DNA from: Clostridiaceae bacterium
Lineage (GTDB): Bacteria > Bacillota > Clostridia > DSM-8532
Length of the DNA: 64,000 nt
Reading direction: 5' to 3'
NCBI GenBank assembly: GCA_012728015.1
Contig: JAAYFY010000010.1
Coordinates: 1 to 64,000 of the forward strand
Shown: positions 21,706 through 36,182 of the stretch, in pieces
How the letters are laid out: every line of letters begins with the position of its first letter
Numbering within the stretch: the first letter of the stretch is position 1
The notes under the pieces: model-generated
Database searches by the model: none
What the model saw: only the letters and a program-made list of their open reading frames with translations
Told to the model about the DNA's origin: nothing
Made by a program: the position numbers and the translations under genes

Positions 21706-22302
21706 ATGAAAAGGCTGGCATCCTTTTTTGTAAGGCAAAAAAAAGAGGGGGAGAAAAAGAAACTGACCGCATTTGAAAATCTGGTCATAATTGTGGTGGT
21801 TGGAGTAATAATCATCTTAGCGGGTGGTCTTTTCTCAAGACCGGGAGGTTCGGGGGATGCATCGAGGGCAGCCGCTTCAGCGCCGGATACTGACCGGGAT
21901 CCGTTGTCCCAGGCGTCCAGCCTTATAGGCGAGGATATAATCATGAACCTTGAGAAGCGCCTGGCCGGCCTGCTTTCACAGGTAGAGGGGGCTGGCGCGG
22001 TTGAGGTCATGATCTATGCCGATTCAAGCAGCGAGATGGTGCCGGCATATAATGACCAGTTAAACAGTAGGAGCGATGAAGAAACCGGCAGGATATCCCT
22101 TGAAAGCAGCGAAAGGCGTGAACTGGCATTGTCGGGCGATGACAAACCAGTTATCCTCAGGGTGGAGATTCCTGAGATTAAAGGAGTTGTGGTGGTGGCT
22201 GAGGGAGCTGATGATTTCCTCGTCAAACAGGAGCTTAACAGCGCTGTCTGCACGCTCCTGGGCGTTCCCGAACACCGGGTCCGGATTCTTAAGCACAAAT
22301 AA
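21706..22302 (+). CDS. spoIIIAG: Stage III sporulation protein AG
   Basis: SpoIIIAG forms a large ring in the intermembrane space between mother cell and forespore. The 198-residue protein has a basic N-terminus, one membrane segment (about 24-44) and a periplasm-facing domain with the ring-building fold, including VPEHRVRILKHK at the end. An upstream in-frame GTG at 21697 exists, but ATG 21706 fits the RBS GGAAGGTGAGGG better. It overlaps nothing and sits 5 nt after spoIIIAF. Confidence 0.92.
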   Translation: MKRLASFFVRQKKEGEKKKLTAFENLVIIVVVGVIIILAGGLFSRPGGSGDASRAAASAPDTDRDPLSQASSLIGEDIIMNLEKRLAGLLSQVEGAGAVEVMIYADSSSEMVPAYNDQLNSRSDEETGRISLESSERRELALSGDDKPVILRVEIPEIKGVVVVAEGADDFLVKQELNSAVCTLLGVPEHRVRILKHK

Positions 22303-22330
22303 TCGGTATGCTTGGTTTGGAGGGGAAGGT

Positions 22331-22912
22331 ATGAAAAGAAAACAGATTATTGTCCTTGGGCTTGTTCTGGTCATTACCGCTGTCGGCATATTGCAGTATC
22401 ATTCGGGAGGCTCGGGGGATTCGGGCGACCTGGCCATGACCGGAAACTATTATTTTGCCGATGGTGATGAAGAACCGGAGGACATTCCGGGAGCGGCTGT
22501 ATATGTAAAAGGCGAGGATGACCTGGATCAGGCGCTGGAAGCATCAAAGGACGCCATCTATTCGGGCTATTTCGCCGAGGCCAGGCTGGAACGCGACAGG
22601 GCCAGGAGCAGGCAGAAAGAAGAACTCAGATCCCTGGCGGAAAGCGGCGATACGGCCAACGCCGCCACCCTGCTGGCCCAGGAGAAACTTGTGGACGTAA
22701 TAAACCGGTGCGAACTGGAAACCACTATGGAAACACTGATAAAGCAAAGGGGGTTTGCGGATGCGCTGGTTTATATAAGCGATACCGACTATATTGATGT
22801 CATCGTCAATGCCAGCAGCCTGTCATCCCAGCAGGTAGCCGTCATAAGCGACATAGTGGTCCGGCATGCGCAGGTGCCCATGGAAAATATCACGGTAAAG
22901 AATGTCAACTGA
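22331..22912 (+). CDS. spoIIIAH: Stage III sporulation protein AH
   Basis: SpoIIIAH anchors the mother-cell side of the channel and binds SpoIIQ across the intermembrane space. It has an N-terminal membrane helix (residues 5-22), a variable linker, and the C-terminal ring-building domain with AATLLAQEKLVDVINRCELE and VIVNASSLSSQQVAVISDIV. ATG 22331 follows GGAGGGGAAGGT; the open frame extends 85 codons upstream within spoIIIAG without relevance. It has 193 residues. It is the last gene of the operon, closed by the hairpin at 22950. Confidence 0.94.
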   Translation: MKRKQIIVLGLVLVITAVGILQYHSGGSGDSGDLAMTGNYYFADGDEEPEDIPGAAVYVKGEDDLDQALEASKDAIYSGYFAEARLERDRARSRQKEELRSLAESGDTANAATLLAQEKLVDVINRCELETTMETLIKQRGFADALVYISDTDYIDVIVNASSLSSQQVAVISDIVVRHAQVPMENITVKNVN

Positions 22913-22949
22913 AGTGTGGCCGGGTATAAAAAGAATATGCGAAACAAAA

Positions 22950-22970
22950 AAACGTACATTAAGTACGTTT
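22950..22970. terminator. Bidirectional terminator, spoIIIAH / rpsT
   Basis: Perfect 8-bp stem AAACGTAC / GTACGTTT with loop ATTAA. A T-rich tail follows on the plus strand and a longer T-run follows on the minus strand, so it can end both the spoIIIA operon and rpsT. Confidence 0.8.
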
Positions 22971-23002
22971 ATTCTTTGTTATGTGAATATGCCCCGGAAG
23001 TA

Positions 23003-23263
23003 TCAGACTGAAGCCTTATAGGCCTTCATGAGTTGTGACTTCTTTCTGGAGGCGGTATTCCTGTGTATAACCTTCTTTGCGGCTGCCTGGTCCAGCTTTT
23101 TTATGGCGGCCTTGAGCAGCGCTTCAGAATTGTCTGCCTTGGAATCCAGGGCTTCGCGATAACGGCGGATGGCCGTTCTGAGCTCGGATTTCTTCATCTT
23201 GTTCCGCAAGCGTTTGGCCTGGGAAACCTTGACCCTTTTCATCGCAGACTTGATATTGGGCAT
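23003..23263 (-). CDS. rpsT: Small ribosomal subunit protein S20
   Basis: Ribosomal protein bS20, which binds 16S rRNA early in 30S assembly. The protein is 86 residues, highly basic and helical, starting MPNIKSAMKRVKVSQAKR. ATG at 23263 has an excellent RBS, AGGAGGTG, 7 nt away; the frame extends to a GTG inside the RBS, which is not used. It is monocistronic, divergent from gpr as is common in clostridia, with a promoter at 23300-23328. Confidence 0.96.
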   Translation of the reverse strand: MPNIKSAMKRVKVSQAKRLRNKMKKSELRTAIRRYREALDSKADNSEALLKAAIKKLDQAAAKKVIHRNTASRKKSQLMKAYKASV

Positions 23264-23299
23264 CTGATTCACCTCCTGAGCGTTAAGTCAACATCCAAT

Positions 23300-23328
23300 A
23301 TATTAACACGAACCATGTCACAATGCAA
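23300..23328 (-). promoter_or_regulatory. Sigma-A promoter of rpsT
   Basis: On the minus strand TTGCAT (23328-23323) and TAATAT (23305-23300) are 17 nt apart, about 37 nt before the rpsT start. The rest of 23330-23520 before gpr shows a CATAATA at 23473 but no matching sigma-G -35. Confidence 0.45.
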
Positions 23329-23523
23329 CATCTTTTTAGTGATATCCTGGTGGCCTCCCGTTCTCTTTATGCCCCTTTCGCATTCCTGTCCATACGCCGG
23401 GAGCGGTTTTTCCGGCGTGTCGCCTCTGGTATTCAGGCGCGGCACGACCGGGATGAAAAAACAGAAATGGTTCATAATAAGCACGGGGCATTAACCAGAA
23501 TTAAATGAAAGGCATGTGTTGCT

Positions 23524-24522
23524 ATGACCAAACCAGTGAGAAGCATTCGTACCGATATGGCCGACGAATCCCGCGCCGCGGGACCGGGACCAAGGATGAT
23601 ACAGCAGCAGGGTGTGCAGGACGGTATCCGTGTGGAGCAGGGTGGAGACGAGCAGGTCAGCATAACCCGGGTTCACGTGATATCTCCGCTGGGCGAGCAG
23701 AATACCGGAAAACCCATGGGTACCTATGTGACCATGGATATGCAGGCAATCCGCGAACGGAGCAGGGATCTCTATGAGAAAGCATGCAGGCTGCTGGCCA
23801 AAGAGCTTGAAAACATGATTAAGATCAATGACAGGGATACCGTGCTGGTGGTAGGGCTTGGCAACTGGAATGTCACAGCGGATTCCCTGGGACCCAGAGT
23901 ATGCTCCCATCTCATGGTAACACGACACCTGCACGAATTCCTGCCCGAAGAAGTGGATGACGGCGTAAGGCCGGTCTGCGCCTTGGCCCCGGGGGTCCTG
24001 GGACTGACAGGGATTGAGACCGGACATATTATCAAGGGTGTGGTGGAACAGATCAAACCGGCGCTGGTCATCGCAGTGGATGCCCTGGCATCCAGGAACA
24101 TGAACAGGGTAAACGCCTCTGTCCAGTTGGCCAATACCGGCATCGCACCGGGTTCGGGCATAGGAAACAAGCGTATGGCTATCGCCCAGGAAACCCTTGG
24201 AGTGCCGGTCATCGCCATAGGTATTCCCACCGTTGTGGATGCGGCCACGATCGTCAGCGACACCATTGATCTTCTGATGGAGGGCATGAAGCAGCAGAGC
24301 CCGCCCGACAGCGGCCTGTACAGGATGCTCTCCAGTATCGACCTTAATGAGAAATACCAGACCATCATTAACATCCTGGAACCCTATTCCGGAAACCTGG
24401 TGGTCACACCCAAGGACACCGATGAGATAGTGGAGTTTCTTTCCAAGATGGTGGCAAACGGCATCAACATGGCACTCCACAAGAACATTGACGCCAAGGA
24501 TGTGGACCGTTTCATCCAATAG
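23524..24522 (+). CDS. gpr: GPR spore endopeptidase
   Basis: Aspartic-type protease that cleaves alpha/beta-type SASPs early in germination, freeing the DNA and supplying amino acids. It is made as an inactive zymogen in the forespore. The 332-residue protein has the N-terminal RTDMADE segment where processing occurs, then VVGLGNWNVTADSLGPRV, APGVLGLTGIETG, AVDALASRNMNRVNASVQ and GNKRMAIAQETLGVP, all typical of the family. RBS GAAAGG precedes ATG 23524. Its substrate type is encoded at 40437-40667. No spoIIP follows, unlike in Bacillus. Confidence 0.96.
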   Translation: MTKPVRSIRTDMADESRAAGPGPRMIQQQGVQDGIRVEQGGDEQVSITRVHVISPLGEQNTGKPMGTYVTMDMQAIRERSRDLYEKACRLLAKELENMIKINDRDTVLVVGLGNWNVTADSLGPRVCSHLMVTRHLHEFLPEEVDDGVRPVCALAPGVLGLTGIETGHIIKGVVEQIKPALVIAVDALASRNMNRVNASVQLANTGIAPGSGIGNKRMAIAQETLGVPVIAIGIPTVVDAATIVSDTIDLLMEGMKQQSPPDSGLYRMLSSIDLNEKYQTIINILEPYSGNLVVTPKDTDEIVEFLSKMVANGINMALHKNIDAKDVDRFIQ

Positions 24523-24615
24523 GATGCCGGCGCGGCAAATGCCTGTTCCCCGCCGCGGACCTGCAGGACAAGAGGACAGCAGCCGCCTTTATCTCATTCT
24601 CGCAGGAAGTTTCGG

Positions 24616-24641
24616 CGCCTTATCGCAAGGCGACCTTGTTT
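24616..24641 (+). terminator. Terminator candidate after gpr
   Basis: Stem CGCCTT (24616-24621) with AAGGCG (24627-24632), loop ATCGC, followed by ACCTTGTTTTA. The stem is short. It lies in the 289-nt spacer 24523-24811, whose remainder is GC-rich, with no gene that I can support. Confidence 0.45.
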
Positions 24642-24756
24642 TACGGGATCCCTTCCCTGGCGCTGCTCTACCCTTCACTTCGGCCGGCCCGCGCCCGGCA
24701 TTGGTCTTTTTGCCTTAACAGGCTGAATATGGCACTCAAGTTGTACTATATTTTAC

Positions 24757-24784
24757 GCATATTTTATAGTATTATGGTTATACA
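24757..24784 (+). promoter_or_regulatory. Possible sigma-E promoter of the amidase gene
   Basis: GCATATT (24757-24763) matches the sigma-E -35 exactly and TATACA (24779-24784) resembles the -10 CATACA, 15 nt apart, about 27 nt before the gene. The -10 has mismatches, so this is tentative. Confidence 0.35.
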
Positions 24785-24811
24785 GCTACGTTACAGGAGT
24801 GATACATAATA

Positions 24812-27728
<2,917 letters not shown>

Positions 27729-27753
27729 TGGGCGGACGGCAAAACTTTCGACG

Positions 27754-27786
27754 GTTTATACTCGATAAATATTATAGAGTATAAAC
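27754..27786. promoter_or_regulatory. Perfect inverted repeat before the HD-GYP gene
   Basis: GTTTATACTC (27754-27763) and GAGTATAAAC (27777-27786) are exact inverted 10-mers around 13 nt. There is no T-run after it. A TATTAT at 27770-27775 within the loop could be a -10. It may be an operator for the HD-GYP gene or a hairpin ending ligA. Confidence 0.5.
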
Positions 27787-27810
27787 TAAAGACAAGGCAG
27801 GGGAGTCACG

Positions 27811-28878
27811 ATGAGCAGCAGGAGATTTGTTATCTCAGTGGATTCGTGCAGGCCGGGCATGCGCACCGCTGAGGCCATTTTCAATCAATATGGCGCGGTA
27901 ATCCTGTTTGAAAACACCATCCTTGACGAACATGCCATCGATCATCTCAGAAACATGGGTATCCAGTATATCCCTGTCTATGAGGAGAGTATGCTCTCGG
28001 TATCGGGCATGGATAAAGACTGGGCAATAACCGACGATGGATTTGGTTTTAATGTAAAATATGAACAGGATGTACATACCATAAAAAAGACCCTCACCGA
28101 CATATCATCCGGCAAGCGCCTGAACAGGGAAATCACCGATCAGATTGTGCACACAATGGTCGGCAGGCCGCAGCAAAACAGGCACATGGTTGATGCCGTC
28201 ATGCAGGTAAGAAGAATCGACGAATATACCTACTACCACTGCATGAATGTGGCCATGCTGTCCATGACCATAGCAAGGTGGATGAACTTTGATGATGCCA
28301 TGGTGAGAAGGTGTACCGAGGCGGGTCTTCTCCACGATGTGGGCAAGGCCAGGATACCGGTGGAGATCATCAATAAACCGGGCAAACTGACCGACAGTGA
28401 GTTTGAGGAGATGAAACGCCACTCGGAATATGGTTATATGATTGTTACACAGGACCGCAGGATCGACCACAACGTCGCTGTAGCCATTTTGACCCACCAT
28501 GAGAAGATGGATGGAAGCGGCTATCCCCTGGGCCTTACAGGCGACAAGATCAACCAGATTGCCAGGATTGTGGCCGTGGCTGACATCTTTGACGCCATGA
28601 CAGCCAACAGGGTATACAAGTACAAGGACACGCCCTTCAAGGTTTTCGAGCTCATGCAGCATAACAGTTTCGGCGTGCTTGACCCTTTGGTGCTCAACGC
28701 GTTTTTGAGTAACATGACCCACTACTATATCGGGTCCAAGGTCAGGCTCAGCACCGGTGAAACCGCCGAGGTGGTTTTCATGAACAGGCTGGATTTTTCA
28801 AGGCCGGTGGTCATGGTGGGCGACCGCTTCATTGATCTGGCTGTAACAAAGTCGGTTTCCATCGTGGAGTTCCTGTAG
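27811..28878 (+). CDS. HD-GYP domain protein, probable c-di-GMP phosphodiesterase
   Basis: The 355-residue protein has an N-terminal region (1-120, related to the DUF3391-type or other small domains seen ahead of HD-GYP) and a complete HD-GYP domain. Metal ligands are visible in HDVGK (H175, D176), the downstream [11 protein letters not shown] (GYP near 237) and [10 protein letters not shown]. The motif set is intact, so hydrolysis of cyclic di-GMP is likely; other cyclic dinucleotides are possible. ATG 27811 has RBS AGGGGAG. It lies 82 nt after ligA and just before two DUF881 genes. Confidence 0.87.
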
Positions 28879-28906
28879 ATCGTCCTTAAGGAGCAGGCAT
28901 ATTTAT

Positions 28907-29620
28907 ATGGTAAAGACACACAGAATACTTATGTTCATGGTATTCCTCCTGTTGGGGATGCTTATTTCCCTCCAGTTCAGGGGTATTATCAATAACCAGG
29001 ATAACAATATATCTGTAAGAGGGATGGCCTCAAGGCTCAAAGCCGAGGAAGCCGAAGGCAGAAAGCTTCTGGAAGAGCTGAACAATCTTGAAGCCGAATG
29101 GAGCCAGCTGCTGAACAATATCGGGAGCCGCCAGCGTGATCCCGAAATAAGGGAACTGATCAGGCAAAGGGATTATGAGTGTTTCAGGGCCGGTCTGACC
29201 AATGTCAGGGGAGACGGTATCGTGATCACCATGCAGGATGCCCAGACGGCCGGCGACATTATTGAGGACTATATCATTCATGATGCCGATATCACCGGTA
29301 TACTGAACGAACTTCGAGGCAACGGGGCAGAGGCCATATCCATAAACGGCGAACGGATCTTGGGAACTTCCAAGCTTGTTTGCGCCGGACCCACCATCTT
29401 CCTTAATAAAAGCCGGTATCCGCCTCCGTATGTCATCAAGGCCATCGGCGATCCCGACATTCTATACAATGCCATCGACCGGCTTCCCAATGTCGCGGTC
29501 ATGAGGCTCTATGGCATCAGGATTGACATCGGGAAGGAGTATGACATGGTTATCGAGAAGTACCGTCTTTACGAATCGGTTGATGAATGGTTGAGAAATC
29601 TGGAGGTGGTATCGGAGTGA
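28907..29620 (+). CDS. DUF881 family protein, first copy
   Basis: A 237-residue protein with one N-terminal membrane helix (about 7-25), a coiled-coil stretch (about 38-75, RLKAEEAEGRKLLEELNN) and an extracytoplasmic DUF881 domain with GDGIVITMQD, HDADITGILNELRGNGAEA and PYVIKAIGDPD. Related proteins (YlxW/YlxX) are usually found near division and sporulation genes; the function is unknown. It ends in a GTGA overlap with a second DUF881 gene, so the two are coupled. Confidence 0.85.
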   Translation: MVKTHRILMFMVFLLLGMLISLQFRGIINNQDNNISVRGMASRLKAEEAEGRKLLEELNNLEAEWSQLLNNIGSRQRDPEIRELIRQRDYECFRAGLTNVRGDGIVITMQDAQTAGDIIEDYIIHDADITGILNELRGNGAEAISINGERILGTSKLVCAGPTIFLNKSRYPPPYVIKAIGDPDILYNAIDRLPNVAVMRLYGIRIDIGKEYDMVIEKYRLYESVDEWLRNLEVVSE

Positions 29621-30315
29621 AGCTGTTCAAGACCATGGCATTAACCCTTGTCTGCCTGCTGCTTGGCATCGTGGTAGCCTGGCAGTATAACAGTGTCAAC
29701 GCGAACCTGGTGCTGGCACAGTACGAAAAGAAGAATCTCAGCCAACTGGTGGAAGAGCTTCTGCTGGAAAGGGAAAACAATGAAAAGCTCAAGACCAGGA
29801 TAGAAGAGCTCCAGCAGGAGGTAGCGGCTTTAAAAGACGATGAAAACATGGATATGAAATACGTGGAGGACCTTAAGAAGTCGGTCCTGATGGCCAGGGT
29901 CATGGCCGGGCTGGAAACCGTAAAGGGCACCGGGCTGGTTATCACGGTGGAAAGCGGCGGGCAGATCAGGGTCAGGGCCAGCCATATCCAGGAACTGCTC
30001 AATGAGCTTAAAGCCTCCGATGTCCAGGCAATCAGCGTAAATGACGAGAGGATTGTGGCAACCAGCGAAGTACGCGAGGCCGGCGATTATATCATGATAA
30101 ACGGCCGCCAATTGGTGCCGCCGTATACTATAAAGGCCATCGGCGACCCCGATAAGATGGAAAGATCGCTGAACCTGATGGGCGGCGTTCTGGCAAAATA
30201 CCAGGTGTACGAATTCAATGTAGGCCTGGAAAAGAATGAAAACGTGGTGATCCCGGGCGTAAGGGATGACGGGACTGTAATCCGGACCGACAAGCTGACG
30301 CCGGTGGTTCCGTAG
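29617..30315 (+). CDS. DUF881 family protein, second copy
   Basis: A paralogue of the preceding gene, 232 residues. It has one N-terminal membrane helix (about 5-22), a coiled coil (about 30-85, rich in EELLLERENNEKLKTRIEEL) and the DUF881 domain with GTGLVITVESGG, LLNELKASDVQAISVNDER and PPYTIKAIGDPDK. The GTG start at 29617 overlaps the previous stop and has RBS GGAGGTGG. Both would lie on the outer face of the membrane. A strong terminator follows at 30394. Confidence 0.85.
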   Translation: MKLFKTMALTLVCLLLGIVVAWQYNSVNANLVLAQYEKKNLSQLVEELLLERENNEKLKTRIEELQQEVAALKDDENMDMKYVEDLKKSVLMARVMAGLETVKGTGLVITVESGGQIRVRASHIQELLNELKASDVQAISVNDERIVATSEVREAGDYIMINGRQLVPPYTIKAIGDPDKMERSLNLMGGVLAKYQVYEFNVGLEKNENVVIPGVRDDGTVIRTDKLTPVVP

Positions 30316-30393
30316 GCTCAGGCCTGTGGCAAACCTGTTTCGGGTCCGGGCATTTTGGCCTGTCCATGGTTAATATAATAGTTACGGAAGTAT

Positions 30394-30425
30394 AGGAGTC
30401 ATTTATGATAAATGACTCCTTTTTT
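30394..30425 (+). terminator. Strong terminator after the DUF881 pair
   Basis: A perfect 12-bp stem, AGGAGTCATTTA with TAAATGACTCCT, loop TGA, followed by a run of T (30420-30425). Confidence 0.9.
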
Positions 30426-30472
30426 CTGGCCGGAACCGCACTGCAGGGTTCCGGTTTGCGGGGTGCTGTTCC

Positions 30473-31384
30473 ATGACTTTGAGGGATGCTGTGAAGAGAA
30501 ATATCAGCCATGTGTTCTCCATAGTGGTTATCGCTGTCATGCTGGTCCTTACGCTGCGAACCATAATTATGGCTGAAATAGGCCGACCTGCCGCCGATAC
30601 AGGGGAAGAGATCCCCAGACTGCTGTCTGACAGTTCCGGGGATACTTATCTGGATATCGCGGCGGAAGGCGTTAGCGGAAACAGCCTCCTTCAATGGGGA
30701 ATCGTACGGGGCGGGCCCGGCAGGCAGCCCAGGCCTGATCCGGGAACCCCCGAGCTCCTTGCAAAGTATAACAGTCTTTACATAGGCGATACCGGCAAAG
30801 GGGTTATATACCTCACCTTTGACGAGGGGTATGAGAAGGGGTATACCTCAAAGATACTCGATGTACTGTATGAGAATGAGGTAAACGCCATTTTCTTTAT
30901 TACGGGTCCATATCTTGAGAAGGAGGAAGCATTGGTCAGAAGGATGGTGGAAGAGGGCCATGCGGTGGGAAACCACACCGTAAGCCACAAAAGTCTGCCT
31001 GCCCTGAGCGATGAGGAGATCGAAAAGGAAACCACTGGCCTCGACCGCAAGTTTTACGGTAAGTTCGGAACCAACATGGTTTTTCTCAGGCCACCGAAGG
31101 GTGAATACAGCGAAAGGACCCTTAAGGTTACGTCAGACCTGGGATATATAAATGTATTCTGGAGCTTTGCCTACGATGACTGGAACACCTCAAACCAAAG
31201 GGGTTGGGAATATGCCTACAATAAAGTAATAAAAAACCTCCACAACGGGGCAATCCTGCTTTTGCACGCCGTGTCGTCCGACAACGCGGAGGCGCTGGAT
31301 GCCATCATCAAGGAAGCCCGCAGACAGGGCTATGAGTTTGGCAATGTTTATGACCTGGAAGATATGGCACGGAGGGAGAACTGA
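30473..31384 (+). CDS. pdaA: Delta-lactam-biosynthetic de-N-acetylase PdaA
   Basis: Removes the N-acetyl group from muramic acid during spore cortex synthesis, leading to the muramic-delta-lactam recognised by germination enzymes. The 303-residue protein has an N-terminal membrane anchor (about 15-35), the PdaA-specific block LLAKYNSLYIGDTGKGVIYL, and a NodB deacetylase domain with TFDEGYEKGY (motif 1), GNHTVSHKS (motif 2) and FLRPPKGEYSERTL (motif 3). The C-terminus RGWEYAYNKVI and ILLLHAVSSDNAEAL is diagnostic. It lies immediately before yqfC, sharing one base. Confidence 0.92.
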   Translation: MTLRDAVKRNISHVFSIVVIAVMLVLTLRTIIMAEIGRPAADTGEEIPRLLSDSSGDTYLDIAAEGVSGNSLLQWGIVRGGPGRQPRPDPGTPELLAKYNSLYIGDTGKGVIYLTFDEGYEKGYTSKILDVLYENEVNAIFFITGPYLEKEEALVRRMVEEGHAVGNHTVSHKSLPALSDEEIEKETTGLDRKFYGKFGTNMVFLRPPKGEYSERTLKVTSDLGYINVFWSFAYDDWNTSNQRGWEYAYNKVIKNLHNGAILLLHAVSSDNAEALDAIIKEARRQGYEFGNVYDLEDMARREN

Positions 31385-31701
31385 TGAAACTGGCCGGAAA
31401 GGAACCTGATAAAGGCGCGAAACCCAGGCGGTGGATCTTGGGCATCGGAGAGAAGCTGGCGGAATTATTCGAGCTTCCCCCTGACCTGTTCGGGAACAGG
31501 CCGAAAGTTACCGCTGTGGGCAGGGGTGAGGTGCTGATTGAGAACTTCAAAGGGATCATGGATTTCCGGGAGGACATGGTGCGCATAAACACCAGTACCG
31601 GTGTTATCAGGATAACGGGAAACGGGATAACCATAAGGGAGATTACAAGCGAAGCCGTCATTATTGGCGGAAAGATATCCAACATTGATTATGACGCGTA
31701 A
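31384..31701 (+). CDS. yqfC: Sporulation protein YqfC
   Basis: A 105-residue protein of the YqfC/YabP family, with the core MVRINTSTGVIRITGNGITIREI that forms a small beta domain. In Bacillus yqfC and yqfD are sigma-E genes of the mother cell. Its start shares one base with the pdaA stop (TGATG) and yqfD follows. The exact role is unknown. Confidence 0.88.
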   Translation: MKLAGKEPDKGAKPRRWILGIGEKLAELFELPPDLFGNRPKVTAVGRGEVLIENFKGIMDFREDMVRINTSTGVIRITGNGITIREITSEAVIIGGKISNIDYDA

Positions 31702-31736
31702 GGTTACGGCGGCGGGAAGCGGGTGCGGCAACGCTT

Positions 31737-32930
31737 ATGTTTCTGGTTCATCTGTGGAATTATATCAGAGGATATGTTATTATTATTGCAAAAGGCGGCG
31801 TCGAGCGGTTTATTAACATCTGCGCCAGAAGGCAGATCCTTCTGTGGGATATAGTAAGAAAAGACAACGACTCGGCAGTCATGAAGGCCAGCCTGAGAGG
31901 ATTTATGCTGATGCGTCCGGCCGCCCGGAAATCGGGATGCCGGATCGGTATCGTAAAAAAATGCGGGTTGCCCTTTTTTCTGCGTCGATTCAGAAAAAGA
32001 CGGGGCTTTAAGGCAGGGCTGCTCTTCTTTGCCGTATTGATTGTCTTTTTTACCTCCATGATATGGGAAATAGAGATCAGGGGCTGCGGCGGAGATACGG
32101 CACAGCGGATCATGAAGGTGCTGGAGGACCGTGACATCCGAAAAGGGAGCTTCAAAACAAGGCTTGACCCCAGGAGGATTGCCTCCGATATCCTGATGAA
32201 CGTAGATGATGTCGCTTGGGCAGGGGTGCAGATCCATGGCGTGAAAATGACCATATCGGTCCAGAGCATAACGCCAAGGCCTGAAGTGGTGGATGAAAGC
32301 CAATGCTGCAACCTGGTAGCAGAGAGGGATGGACTGATAACCAAGGTAGAAGTCCTTGCGGGGACTTTGAAAGTCATGGAAGGCGATACGGTCACCAAGG
32401 GCCAGTTGCTGGTTTCAGGAATACTGGAATCGCAGAATCCGGAGTTTGGCGCCAAAAATGTGCACGCACTGGGCAGGATAACGGCAAGGACCTGGTACGA
32501 TACGAAGGTACCCCTGTCGTATGAGTATACCAAACGCATAAGGACAGGAAGGACGCGTGAGAATACCTATATCCGGATTCTGAACATGAAGATCGGACTG
32601 TTTGGAAACCGCAGGGACTTTGAGCTGTATGACAGCGTATCCTATGACAGAACGGTGAAGGGGCCGTTTAACACAGAGATTCCCGTAGGCCTGACGGTGG
32701 AAAAACTCTATGAGGTAACCGAGAAAAAAGTAAGGCTATCAGCTGAGGAGGCTGAGGCCCTCGCGTTGGAAAAAGCAAGGCTGGATTTGAGTAAGGAACT
32801 GTCGCCGGACTGCAGGGTATTGGACGAAAGGATTAACATACTCAGGAGTGAAACCGGTGATGCATGGCTGCAGCTCATCGTAGAATGCGAGGAGGACATA
32901 GCCGGCCGGGAACCTTTGGGAGGAGATTGA
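31737..32930 (+). CDS. yqfD: Sporulation protein YqfD
   Basis: A 397-residue protein of the YqfD family. Residues 1-85 hold the conserved N-terminal region starting FLVHLWNYIRGYV, followed by one membrane segment (about 95-115, LLFFAVLIVFFTSMI) and an extracytoplasmic domain with ITPRPEVVDE, DGLITKVEVLAGTLKV and a VKGPFNTEIPVG stretch. It is expected to act in the engulfing mother cell, function undefined. RBS is weak. The next gene, phoH, begins directly after its stop. Confidence 0.88.
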   Translation: MFLVHLWNYIRGYVIIIAKGGVERFINICARRQILLWDIVRKDNDSAVMKASLRGFMLMRPAARKSGCRIGIVKKCGLPFFLRRFRKRRGFKAGLLFFAVLIVFFTSMIWEIEIRGCGGDTAQRIMKVLEDRDIRKGSFKTRLDPRRIASDILMNVDDVAWAGVQIHGVKMTISVQSITPRPEVVDESQCCNLVAERDGLITKVEVLAGTLKVMEGDTVTKGQLLVSGILESQNPEFGAKNVHALGRITARTWYDTKVPLSYEYTKRIRTGRTRENTYIRILNMKIGLFGNRRDFELYDSVSYDRTVKGPFNTEIPVGLTVEKLYEVTEKKVRLSAEEAEALALEKARLDLSKELSPDCRVLDERINILRSETGDAWLQLIVECEEDIAGREPLGGD

Positions 32931-33908
32931 TTGGAAGCAGTTGTAGAAAAGGTCATAATCCTGAATGACCCCAGGGAAGCAGCCGACGTGTTCGGGGAGT
33001 ATGACCGGAATGTCAGGCTTATAGAAGACAGGCTGGGCGTTAAAATAACCAACCGCAACAATGAGATCAGGATATCCGGGTTTGAGGGCAAGGCGGATAC
33101 GGCCTATGACATACTGAAAAAACTGATTGCCATATCCGGGGGCGGAGATCCTGTTTCGGAACAAAATGTTCGTTATCTGCTTGAACTGAGCAATGAGGAA
33201 CTGGTGAGCGGCGAGCTGCCGCTGGACCTGGTCTGTGTGACATACCGGGGCAAGCCGGTGAAGTCGAAGACCTTCGGACAGAAGAGGTACATTGAGGCCT
33301 TGCGTAAGTACCCCATCGTATTTGGCATCGGCCCGGCCGGAACAGGCAAGACATTCCTGGCTGTGGCCCAGGCCGTCAAGTCTTTCCGGGAGAAGAAGGT
33401 GAGCAGGATTATTCTGACCCGTCCTGCCGTGGAAGCCGGAGAGAGGCTTGGCTTTCTTCCGGGAGACCTTCAGAACAAGGTTGACCCATACTTAAGACCG
33501 CTATACGATGCCATGTATCACATCATGGGACCCGATACCTTCCATAACAATGTGGAAAAAGGAGCCATAGAAATCGCGCCCCTTGCTTATATGAGGGGAA
33601 GGACACTTGATGATTCGTTTATTATCCTTGACGAGGCCCAGAACACAACGCCGGAGCAGATGAAGATGTTCCTGACCAGGATCGGGGCCGGATCAAGGGC
33701 GGTGATTACCGGGGATGTTACCCAGGTAGATCTGCCAGGCGATAAGAAGTCGGGTTTGATTGAGGCGCAGCGCATACTGTCGGATGTGGAAGGCCTCGCG
33801 TTTGTCATGCTTTCCGAAAAGGACGTGGTACGCCATGAACTGGTCCAGAGAATTATAAGGGCTTATGAGCGTTATGAAAAGACACAGGGAAACAGGCGGA
33901 ACAGATGA
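32931..33908 (+). CDS. phoH: PhoH-like ATPase
   Basis: A P-loop ATPase of the PhoH family, often linked to RNA metabolism with YbeY. The 325-residue protein has an N-terminal KH-like region (DRLGVKITNRNNEIRISG) and the ATPase with Walker A GPAGTGKTFLA (about 134-144) and Walker B FIILDEAQNTTPEQ. The start is TTG 32931, right after the yqfD stop, with GGAGGA upstream. The order yqfC-yqfD-phoH-pgpH-ybeY-dgkA is as in Bacillus. Confidence 0.92.
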   Translation: MEAVVEKVIILNDPREAADVFGEYDRNVRLIEDRLGVKITNRNNEIRISGFEGKADTAYDILKKLIAISGGGDPVSEQNVRYLLELSNEELVSGELPLDLVCVTYRGKPVKSKTFGQKRYIEALRKYPIVFGIGPAGTGKTFLAVAQAVKSFREKKVSRIILTRPAVEAGERLGFLPGDLQNKVDPYLRPLYDAMYHIMGPDTFHNNVEKGAIEIAPLAYMRGRTLDDSFIILDEAQNTTPEQMKMFLTRIGAGSRAVITGDVTQVDLPGDKKSGLIEAQRILSDVEGLAFVMLSEKDVVRHELVQRIIRAYERYEKTQGNRRNR

Positions 33909-33929
33909 TAACGCCCGGGAGGTGTAAGG

Positions 33930-36182
33930 GTGGTTAAGAAGAACAAGAAGGCTGAAAACAGTCTGTTTGGTTTTTTGAAAAACGTATCTTTTCAACGGCT
34001 GATAGCGCTTGTGGTCACTTTTGTGGCTTTGGTGGCAATGGTTGCGTATGAGGCTGCGCCGAAAAAGTACAAGCTTTCTGTGGGCGATATCAGTCAGTAT
34101 GATATCAATGCTCCGAGAGATATTGAGAATACCCTGAAAACCCGTGAAAACGCAGAGCAAAAGGCAGCAGAGCTCAAGCCGGTCATAGTGCCGATCGAAG
34201 GGGCAAACGACAGCATTACAAGCGGTGCCTACGCATATTTTGACGGGCTTGCGACCCTCTTCGGCCAGGTGAGGAGCAGCCAGCAGGGGAAGGATGACCT
34301 GGCTGCCTTGATCCGGGAGTATGACAAGAGGAATTACTACGCCGTACTTGCTCAAATCCCGCAGGAAAAGCTGATGGCTCTCATTGCCGATGAGAGTGAG
34401 ATAACGCATCTCAAGTCGGTGGTTATAAACAGCATTCTTCCGGGGGTCAAGAGGAAGCAGCTGATGGAGGACTACCTGGAGTCTGAAAAGGAAGCCGCTC
34501 TGGCGCAGATAAAAATGGTATTCGATGATGAAAGCATTCATCTTATAGCCGCGGACCTGCTGGACAAGGTAGTTACTCCCAACAGCCGGATCGATGAAAA
34601 AGCCACCGAGGAGCAGAGGAATGCCTTTATTGAAACCGCCATAAAGGAAAACCCGGTGATCATATACAAGGATGAGCGCATCATCAGCAAGGATGACGTT
34701 ATAACCGAGGATAAGTACCAGATCCTTAAGGAACTCAACTACATAGACAGTGAGGGCAGACCGGATTATTTGCTTTATATAGCCGTATTCCTGCTCATAT
34801 TCGCGTTGTTCTTCCTTACTATGCTGTATCTCAGGAACTTCCATAAAAAGCTGTATTTTGACAAAAACGCTGTTATGCTGGTGGGGGTTTCGATCATTAT
34901 TACGAGCCTGTTTGCCCTGCTATTCAGGGAGTTCATACCACAATATGCCCACCTCATCATCCCCACACTGATAGCCCCTGTGCTCACCGCCATTTTCCTC
35001 GGCATACAACCGGCCATTGCCGTCAACCTGCTGCTGACCTTCAGTTTCGCGCTGATGCTGGGAGGGAATACCCAGTTCATATTCATGTCGTTTATCAGCG
35101 GCACCATCGCCCCGTACCTGACTGTCAACGCCACCCAGAGGAGAAAAATATCACTGGCGGGACTGATGCTGGGCGGGATCAATCTGCTGGTGGTGGTTCT
35201 TACAGGCATACTTGAAAAAAGGAGCCTGGAGAGCTTTCTGTACGAAGGCGGGATTGCCTTTCTGAACGGTATATTCTCCATCATACTGGCCATAGGCATA
35301 CTGCCATTCCTCGAAAGCACTTTCAATATAATAACTCCCATGAAACTGATTGAACTGGCCGACCCTAACCATCCACTGCTGAAAAGGCTTCTTCTGGAAG
35401 CGCCCGGAACCTACCATCACAGCCTGATGGTGGGTAACCTGGCTGAAGTGGCTACACGGGAAATTGGCGGCAACTCCCTGCTGTCGCGGGTGGGCGCCTA
35501 TTACCACGATATCGGGAAGCTTAAGCGTCCCCATTATTTCAAAGAAAACCAGATGGCTGAGAATCCCCACGACAGCCTGGCTCCAAGCATGAGCTCCAGG
35601 ATAATAACCTCCCATACCAGGGACGGTGAGGAGCTGGCATTAAAATACAAGCTGCCCAGGGTTATCCGCGATATGATCGTGCAGCATCATGGAACCACCC
35701 TCATGGTGTATTTCTATCATGCGGCGACCCAGAGCGGAAATACAGAGGAACTGAACGAAGACGACTTCAAATACCAGGGCCCATTGCCCGATACCAGGGA
35801 GGCGGCGGTGGTCATGCTGGCCGACTCGGTTGAAGCCGCTGTCAGGTCCGTGCCTGACAAGACCAGGGAAAAGATTGAAGGCCTGGTAAGGAAAATTATA
35901 AAGGACAAGCTGGATGACGGCCAGCTGGATCGCTGCGATCTGACCCTGAAGGAACTGACCATCATCGCGGGAAGCTTCATACAGGTACTTGGCGGCATCT
36001 TCCACGAAAGGCCGGAATACCCTGAGGTCGAGAAGAAGAAGGACCTTCTGGAACTGGATAACCGTATATACAACCTCCCGAGGAATTTAAAGAAAGAAGG
36101 TGCATTGGGTCCAAATGGCAGTAACAGTTTACAACCGGCAGAAAAAACTCAGCCTGCCGAGGAAAACAATAAACCTTCTTAA
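33930..36182 (+). CDS. pgpH: 7TM-HD phosphodiesterase, PgpH-type
   Basis: A 750-residue membrane protein: one helix (about 18-38), a large extracytoplasmic 7TMR-HDED domain, seven membrane helices (about 280-465) and a cytosolic HD domain with YHHSLMVGNLAE and YYHDIGKLKRP. Listeria PgpH hydrolyses cyclic di-AMP, so that activity is likely; Bacillus calls the gene yqfF. GTG 33930 has RBS GGGAGGTG. The last 25 residues are a disordered tail, encoded in the overlap with ybeY. Confidence 0.9.
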   Translation: MVKKNKKAENSLFGFLKNVSFQRLIALVVTFVALVAMVAYEAAPKKYKLSVGDISQYDINAPRDIENTLKTRENAEQKAAELKPVIVPIEGANDSITSGAYAYFDGLATLFGQVRSSQQGKDDLAALIREYDKRNYYAVLAQIPQEKLMALIADESEITHLKSVVINSILPGVKRKQLMEDYLESEKEAALAQIKMVFDDESIHLIAADLLDKVVTPNSRIDEKATEEQRNAFIETAIKENPVIIYKDERIISKDDVITEDKYQILKELNYIDSEGRPDYLLYIAVFLLIFALFFLTMLYLRNFHKKLYFDKNAVMLVGVSIIITSLFALLFREFIPQYAHLIIPTLIAPVLTAIFLGIQPAIAVNLLLTFSFALMLGGNTQFIFMSFISGTIAPYLTVNATQRRKISLAGLMLGGINLLVVVLTGILEKRSLESFLYEGGIAFLNGIFSIILAIGILPFLESTFNIITPMKLIELADPNHPLLKRLLLEAPGTYHHSLMVGNLAEVATREIGGNSLLSRVGAYYHDIGKLKRPHYFKENQMAENPHDSLAPSMSSRIITSHTRDGEELALKYKLPRVIRDMIVQHHGTTLMVYFYHAATQSGNTEELNEDDFKYQGPLPDTREAAVVMLADSVEAAVRSVPDKTREKIEGLVRKIIKDKLDDGQLDRCDLTLKELTIIAGSFIQVLGGIFHERPEYPEVEKKKDLLELDNRIYNLPRNLKKEGALGPNGSNSLQPAEKTQPAEENNKPS

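Follow-up and report, generated by a model that had tools for sequence, protein, structure and literature searches.

A DUF881 gene pair beside the pdaA-yqfC-yqfD-phoH block of Clostridia: a probable displaced counterpart of YlxW/YlxX with a lineage-specific HD-GYP neighbor

The stretch of DNA analyzed, termed the window, comprises 64,000 nucleotides (positions 1 to 64,000 of contig JAAYFY010000010.1, Clostridiaceae bacterium, assembly GCA_012728015.1) and contains an HD-GYP gene followed by two tandem DUF881 genes, termed DUF881-A and DUF881-B (Table 1). An earlier note on this DNA had described a complete HD-GYP gene beside two DUF881 genes, and this arrangement is confirmed by the open reading frames at the coordinates claimed and by Pfam matches to HD_5 and, twice, to DUF881 (123.1 bits for DUF881-A and 115.5 bits for DUF881-B, with a cut-off of 25). 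The HD-GYP and DUF881-A genes are separated by 28 nt, and the GTGA overlap described as joining the DUF881 genes is seen at 29617-29620, shared by the end of DUF881-A and the start of DUF881-B. Upstream of the HD-GYP gene lie spoIIIA genes, gpr, a cwlD-like amidase gene (TIGR02883, 119 bits with a cut-off of 222) and ligA. The genes that we take to be phoH, gpr and spoIIIA are named from translation and position and not from a profile search. The 7TM-HD protein is probably another nucleotide-signal enzyme close to the pair. The genome has only these two DUF881 genes, and a single-protein scan of genome contigs returned only four close relatives, including Thermoclostridium caenicola, which places the window near Thermoclostridium.

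Table 1. Coordinates of the genes and signals surrounding the DUF881 pair in the window
Feature	Position	Strand	Remark
ligA	25680..27728	+	upstream neighbor in the window's family
Perfect 10-bp inverted repeat, 13-nt spacer	27754-27763 / 27777-27786		before the HD-GYP gene
HD-GYP (putative phosphodiesterase) gene, 355 aa	27811..28878	+	Pfam HD_5, E 9.6e-32
DUF881-A, 237 aa	28907..29620	+	PF05949 1.1e-35; lineage II, YlxX-like by tree and motif
DUF881-B, 232 aa, GTG start	29617..30315	+	PF05949 2.4e-33; lineage I, YlxW-like by tree
Intrinsic terminator-like hairpin after the DUF881 pair	30394..30420	+	kept in L033 and L035
pdaA-type spore cortex deacetylase	30473..31384	+	TIGR02884 296.6 bits, just under the cut-off of 298
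yqfC (YabP family), sporulation	31384..31701	+	PF07873 3.8e-17
yqfD, sporulation	31737..32930	+	PF06898 2e-116
phoH-like gene	32931..33908	+	name from translation and place
7TM-HD (PgpH-type) protein	33930-36182		downstream, same block as the DUF881 pair

The terminator that had been noted after the pair is present as a hairpin of 12 pairs followed by a T run, and the hairpin and T run are retained in two relatives. It has the longest stem among 11 terminator-like hits in the region 25000-32500, a number modestly above the 7.1 (sd 2.4) obtained in shuffled sequences. Promoter-like hits occur at the chance level (8 versus 7.5 in shuffles), and Rfam at gathering thresholds gives no match within 22000-34000. 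The inverted repeat preceding the HD-GYP gene was considered as an operator and rejected, four close relatives sharing only its AT-rich core.

Both DUF881 proteins have a single hydrophobic helix at the N terminus and long helices after it, as judged from the sequences and from modest AlphaFold2 models (pTM 0.53 and 0.47), and would be externally exposed coiled-coil proteins. A fold search with DUF881-B gave PDB entry 3gmg as the sole structural match at E 0.001 or better (E 1.3e-10), together with weak ferredoxin-like/PII-like and other matches; the sequence of 3gmg matches DUF881-B with 4.9e-9 and DUF881-A with 7.8e-5. The HD-GYP catalytic motifs (HDVGK and HHExxDGSGYP) are intact in the window and in 21 relatives, the second motif being masked in one more sequence, and the protein is a putative c-di-GMP phosphodiesterase. 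The genome contains 12 GGDEF matches and five HD_5 matches, one of them weak, indicating that c-di-GMP signaling is likely present and that c-di-GMP is likely made.

The window's family comprises 32 genomes (G000-G031), all of which contain DUF881, nearly always as a clean tandem pair; the pair is cut by a contig end in G001 and G031, and the second gene of G029 matches in two pieces. The gene order cwlD-ligA-[HD-GYP]-A-B-pdaA-yqfC-yqfD-phoH-pgpH is kept wherever the contigs reach, except in G007 and G013, where pdaA-yqfC-yqfD are missing from the locus. An HD-GYP gene occupies the slot before DUF881-A in 25 of the 32 genomes, comprising 23 (window included) and two (G015 and G031) in which it directly follows ligA where the contig ends, in keeping with this order. 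The adjacency is thus not unique to this genome; uniqueness was an outcome that the earlier note had named as counting against its proposal. DUF881 is missing in none of the family, and the HD-GYP gene is missing from the slot in seven genomes (G006, G007, G012, G020, G021, G024 and G029), where the best match to the window HD-GYP has at most 43% identity (34% in G012, whose assembly is a single contig). On a tree of DUF881-A, DUF881-B, PhoH and YqfD (22 genomes with and 7 without HD-GYP, with the window excluded, G031 left out and G015 and G032 given no state), presence and absence require four changes, all forced by well-supported branches and most simply read as four losses. The ligA gene in the same slot is 34-38% identical to that of the window in L041, L043-L045, L047, L049, L052-L054 and L056 and 57-92% identical in the remaining family loci where visible, which suggests that it has been replaced or has strongly diverged in those ten loci.

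A survey across Clostridia, as the earlier note had proposed, shows that the adjacency is not general in the class: outside the family, 64 genomes with 67 DUF881 loci were covered, and none of these loci has an adjacent HD-GYP related to that of the window (three of them, L067, L069 and L120, have less than 500 bp of upstream sequence visible). In G032, the one genome sampled from the sister family (L067), the nearest HD-GYP relative is on another contig near murA. An HD-GYP hit at L142 was rejected because its translation looks by eye like RNase Y, and the HD-GYP-like gene of L107, a division-type locus, is placed more than 4 kb from DUF881. The 7TM-HD gene is found downstream of the pair in many more spore-block loci than HD-GYP is outside the window's family.

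Among 22 measured relatives, the HD-GYP and DUF881-A genes lie 19-39 nt apart in 15, in which an operon is plausible, and 132-856 nt apart in the other seven (the longest gap, 856 nt, in G009). G014 and G018 have clear terminators inside this gap, and four others have weaker candidates. The proposal that the three genes form one likely unit is plausible for the closely spaced loci and does not extend to the widely spaced ones or to the seven genomes of the 32 from which HD-GYP is missing. As judged from the gaps and terminators, separate promoters, the other outcome named as counting against it, are probably present in part of the family. HD-GYP and the pair are not always retained jointly, which an operon conserved as a system would require. 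What stands of the suggested link between signaling and envelope processes is that the genes are real and their adjacency is conserved in one family; HD-GYP is missing from seven family genomes that have the pair, which leaves the link weak and unproven and points to HD-GYP as a lineage-specific neighbor.

Of 253 sampled Clostridia genomes, 132 contain DUF881, with a maximum of three copies per genome, and the loci of 95 genomes other than that of the window were fetched and annotated. Loci were typed by the presence of at least two division genes or, failing that, of at least one of pdaA, yqfC, yqfD, phoH and pgpH in the fetched region. DUF881 is located in the division cluster with ftsQ and sbp in 44 of the 95 genomes (33 families) and at the pdaA/yqfCD/phoH block in 46 (13 families), and five are undecided because the region ends (G001, G004, G014 and G030 of the window's family, and G145). 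An extra DUF881 copy elsewhere is present in at least three division-locus genomes (G070, G083 and G210), and in the spore-block genome G263 (L139) the DUF881 genes are about 6 kb from pdaA and not beside it. The conserved neighbors of the pair are the downstream genes pdaA-yqfC-yqfD-phoH, an association that is wider than that with HD-GYP and is not mentioned in the earlier note. The window pair does not lie between ftsQ and sbp; in the same genome ftsQ abuts sbp on contig C38, in the order ftsW-murA-ftsQ-sbp-ftsZ, with no DUF881 between them, the window's genome being the one in which this site was examined.

Other arrangements are apparent at individual DUF881 loci. A gene of about 820 codons, the start of which resembles by eye a sugar nucleotidyltransferase, is placed upstream of the pair in L071, L101, L103, L104, L129 and L139, which span several families outside that of the window. 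Three of the five fetched genomes of family f52 have a third DUF881 gene of lineage I within several kb of the pair (L101 3543-4259, L102 2165-2980 and L139). In family f39, sbp is found between the two DUF881 genes in all eight loci with sbp (L093-L096, L131, L132, L138 and L140).

The tree of 70 rows calculated with LG+C20 places the first spore-block copies in one clade (99/96) and the second spore-block copies in another (100/97), with the first division copies and second spore copies forming one side of a branch with support of 100/96. A simpler model with 100 rows also pairs the two spore copies with different division copies (support 90). The second division copies require two changes in the 70-row tree, and, depending on how the tree is rooted, the first spore copies lie within them. 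The 100- and 70-row trees exclude single-copy loci, three-copy loci and long branches, and the first DUF881 tree was built from 131 of 179 usable rows with most family members left out. The family relatives of DUF881-A group with the second DUF881 of division loci and those of DUF881-B with the first, and the two adjacent genes belong to distinct lineages (I and II). The motif [IVL][HN]xxD[ILMV], which was picked after viewing the sequences, agrees with this grouping: at division loci it occurs in 28 of 30 second copies and 4 of 30 first copies, and at spore-block loci in 28 of 41 first copies (of the 16 outside the window's family, in 10) and none of 41 second copies. Set against the orthology support of 100/96, an arrangement with gene order kept is not rejected by the AU test (p 0.08 with 70 rows; 0.20 with the simpler model). 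The RpoB tree of 56 of the 60 requested genomes (no match was found in G007, G059, G183 and G071) has two changes of locus type, with f15/f51/f25 placed outside the main clade at a weakly supported node, which means that two events or a transfer are possible. The simple reading of these trees is one move of the pair with the gene order swapped. No description of a relocation of the DUF881 pair was found in a partial, mostly open-access literature search.

We consider that the DUF881 pair represents displaced YlxW/YlxX-type division proteins that would still act mainly in vegetative division, with HD-GYP as a lineage-specific neighbor, and assign this reading a probability of roughly 0.6. It is based on the ftsQ-sbp site without the pair, the grouping of each spore-block copy into a single clade and the either/or occurrence of the two locus types. 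A YlxW/YlxX-type pair would have moved from the ftsQ-sbp interval to a position upstream of the pdaA-yqfC-yqfD-phoH block, and HD-GYP would have been added on the upstream side in the ancestor of the window's family or close to it, where its co-transcription with the pair may occur in only part of the family and where it appears dispensable for retention of the pair. Both proteins may be membrane-anchored, with coiled-coil stalks carrying small outer domains, and function jointly at the septum, probably in a hetero-complex with a structural or regulatory role. A two-protein septal complex is thus the function that we infer, with a vegetative role more likely than a sporulation-specific one. 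The three alternatives considered below and this reading are not mutually exclusive, and their probabilities need not sum to one.

Independent duplication would give rise to a spore-block pair that is not the moved division pair. The AU test does not reject the two spore-block copies as one clade (p 0.31 with 70 rows; 0.36 with the simpler model), and in the best trees the two spore copies nevertheless pair with different division copies, the shared motif sorts the copies likewise and the division site of the window's genome lacks the pair, making this origin very improbable. The signaling unit suggested by the earlier note, in which c-di-GMP turnover by HD-GYP would be coupled to an envelope complex of the pair, is in keeping with the short gaps of the window and most relatives, the intact catalytic motifs and the GGDEF content described above, and c-di-GMP is reported to inhibit early sporulation in C. 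difficile (PMC8653836). It is nonetheless improbable given the seven family genomes that keep the pair without HD-GYP, the four changes on the tree, the long gaps with terminators, the 67 outside-family loci, the position of the G032 relative near murA, and the HD-GYP sequence itself, which has no obvious membrane or outer part that would contact the DUF881 domains.

Recruitment to sporulation, with the pair acting at the asymmetric septum, in engulfment or in the cortex alongside CwlD, PdaA, YqfC and YqfD and having moved for co-regulation, is unlikely, although several observations favor it. Within the family the pair lies between the cwlD-like amidase gene and pdaA, and most spore-block genomes have it ahead of pdaA, of yqfC-yqfD or of both. 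In published reports, yqfC and yqfD are named as SigE-driven cortex genes (PMC3533761) and division-cluster synthases of Clostridia are described as able to take sporulation roles (PMC10693644). Of the 253 genomes, 116 have both DUF881 and SpoIVA, 16 DUF881 only, 75 SpoIVA only and 46 neither, so that SpoIVA is found in 116 of 132 DUF881-bearing and 75 of 121 DUF881-less genomes, a comparison that ignores relatedness among genomes that are not independent and that could hint at a tie to sporulation. Against such recruitment, phoH directly follows the pair in G007, G013, G043 and G218 (completeness 83%, 75%, 83% and 97%), with pdaA-yqfC-yqfD missing between them at the locus and no match to SpoIVA in these genomes. 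The pair appears not to be lost together with sporulation genes, being kept in G007 and G013 at the completeness given, and its retention in the four genomes speaks against a function confined to sporulation. G030, G031 and G032 likewise gave no SpoIVA match; pdaA, yqfC and yqfD are kept in G031 and G032, which shows that absence of SpoIVA alone proves little, and the contig of G030 ends before them. A terminator lies between the pair and pdaA both in the window and in two relatives, and C. difficile ylxW and ylxX, located downstream of ftsQ, are described as expressed in vegetative cells (PMC12548448). A fuller scenario is rather doubtful, in which the pair left the division cluster once in a large branch of Clostridia, with its gene order exchanged and without sbp, took up a place in the spore cortex block and underwent a change of use, now shaping the sporulation septum or engulfing membranes, with the HD-GYP of one family adding c-di-GMP control.

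The probable displacement of the division pair is more informative than the HD-GYP adjacency. YlxW and YlxX are conserved proteins, found at the division site in C. difficile, and lineages that have the pair apart from ftsQ/sbp, or that keep it while apparently devoid of sporulation genes, are natural experiments separating proteins that work with FtsQ/Sbp, that work in sporulation or that work alone as a pair. The locus also cautions that an adjoining signaling enzyme can be a recent, easily lost neighbor.

The catalytic domain of solved HD-GYP phosphodiesterases (PDB codes 4mcw and 5z7c) matches window residues about 137-305 together with the motifs, and the N-terminal part of the window protein falls outside these matches. 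Rv1825, the M. tuberculosis DUF881 protein of PDB code 3gmg, is similar to DUF881-A and DUF881-B in sequence, and to DUF881-B also in fold, and differs in belonging to another phylum. The closest counterparts are YlxW and YlxX of B. subtilis, with the gene order divIB-ylxW-ylxX-sbp (PMC6827917), and of C. difficile, where RFP fusions are reported to localize to midcell (PMC12548448). Like the window pair, these are encoded by two adjacent DUF881 genes, each product having one N-terminal hydrophobic helix, and by tree the window pair corresponds to the two lineages of the Clostridia ftsQ-sbp loci, the names YlxW and YlxX for the window proteins being based on position and family. The window pair differs from YlxW/YlxX in being placed away from ftsQ-sbp and before pdaA-yqfC-yqfD, in an apparently swapped gene order, and in having HD-GYP upstream.
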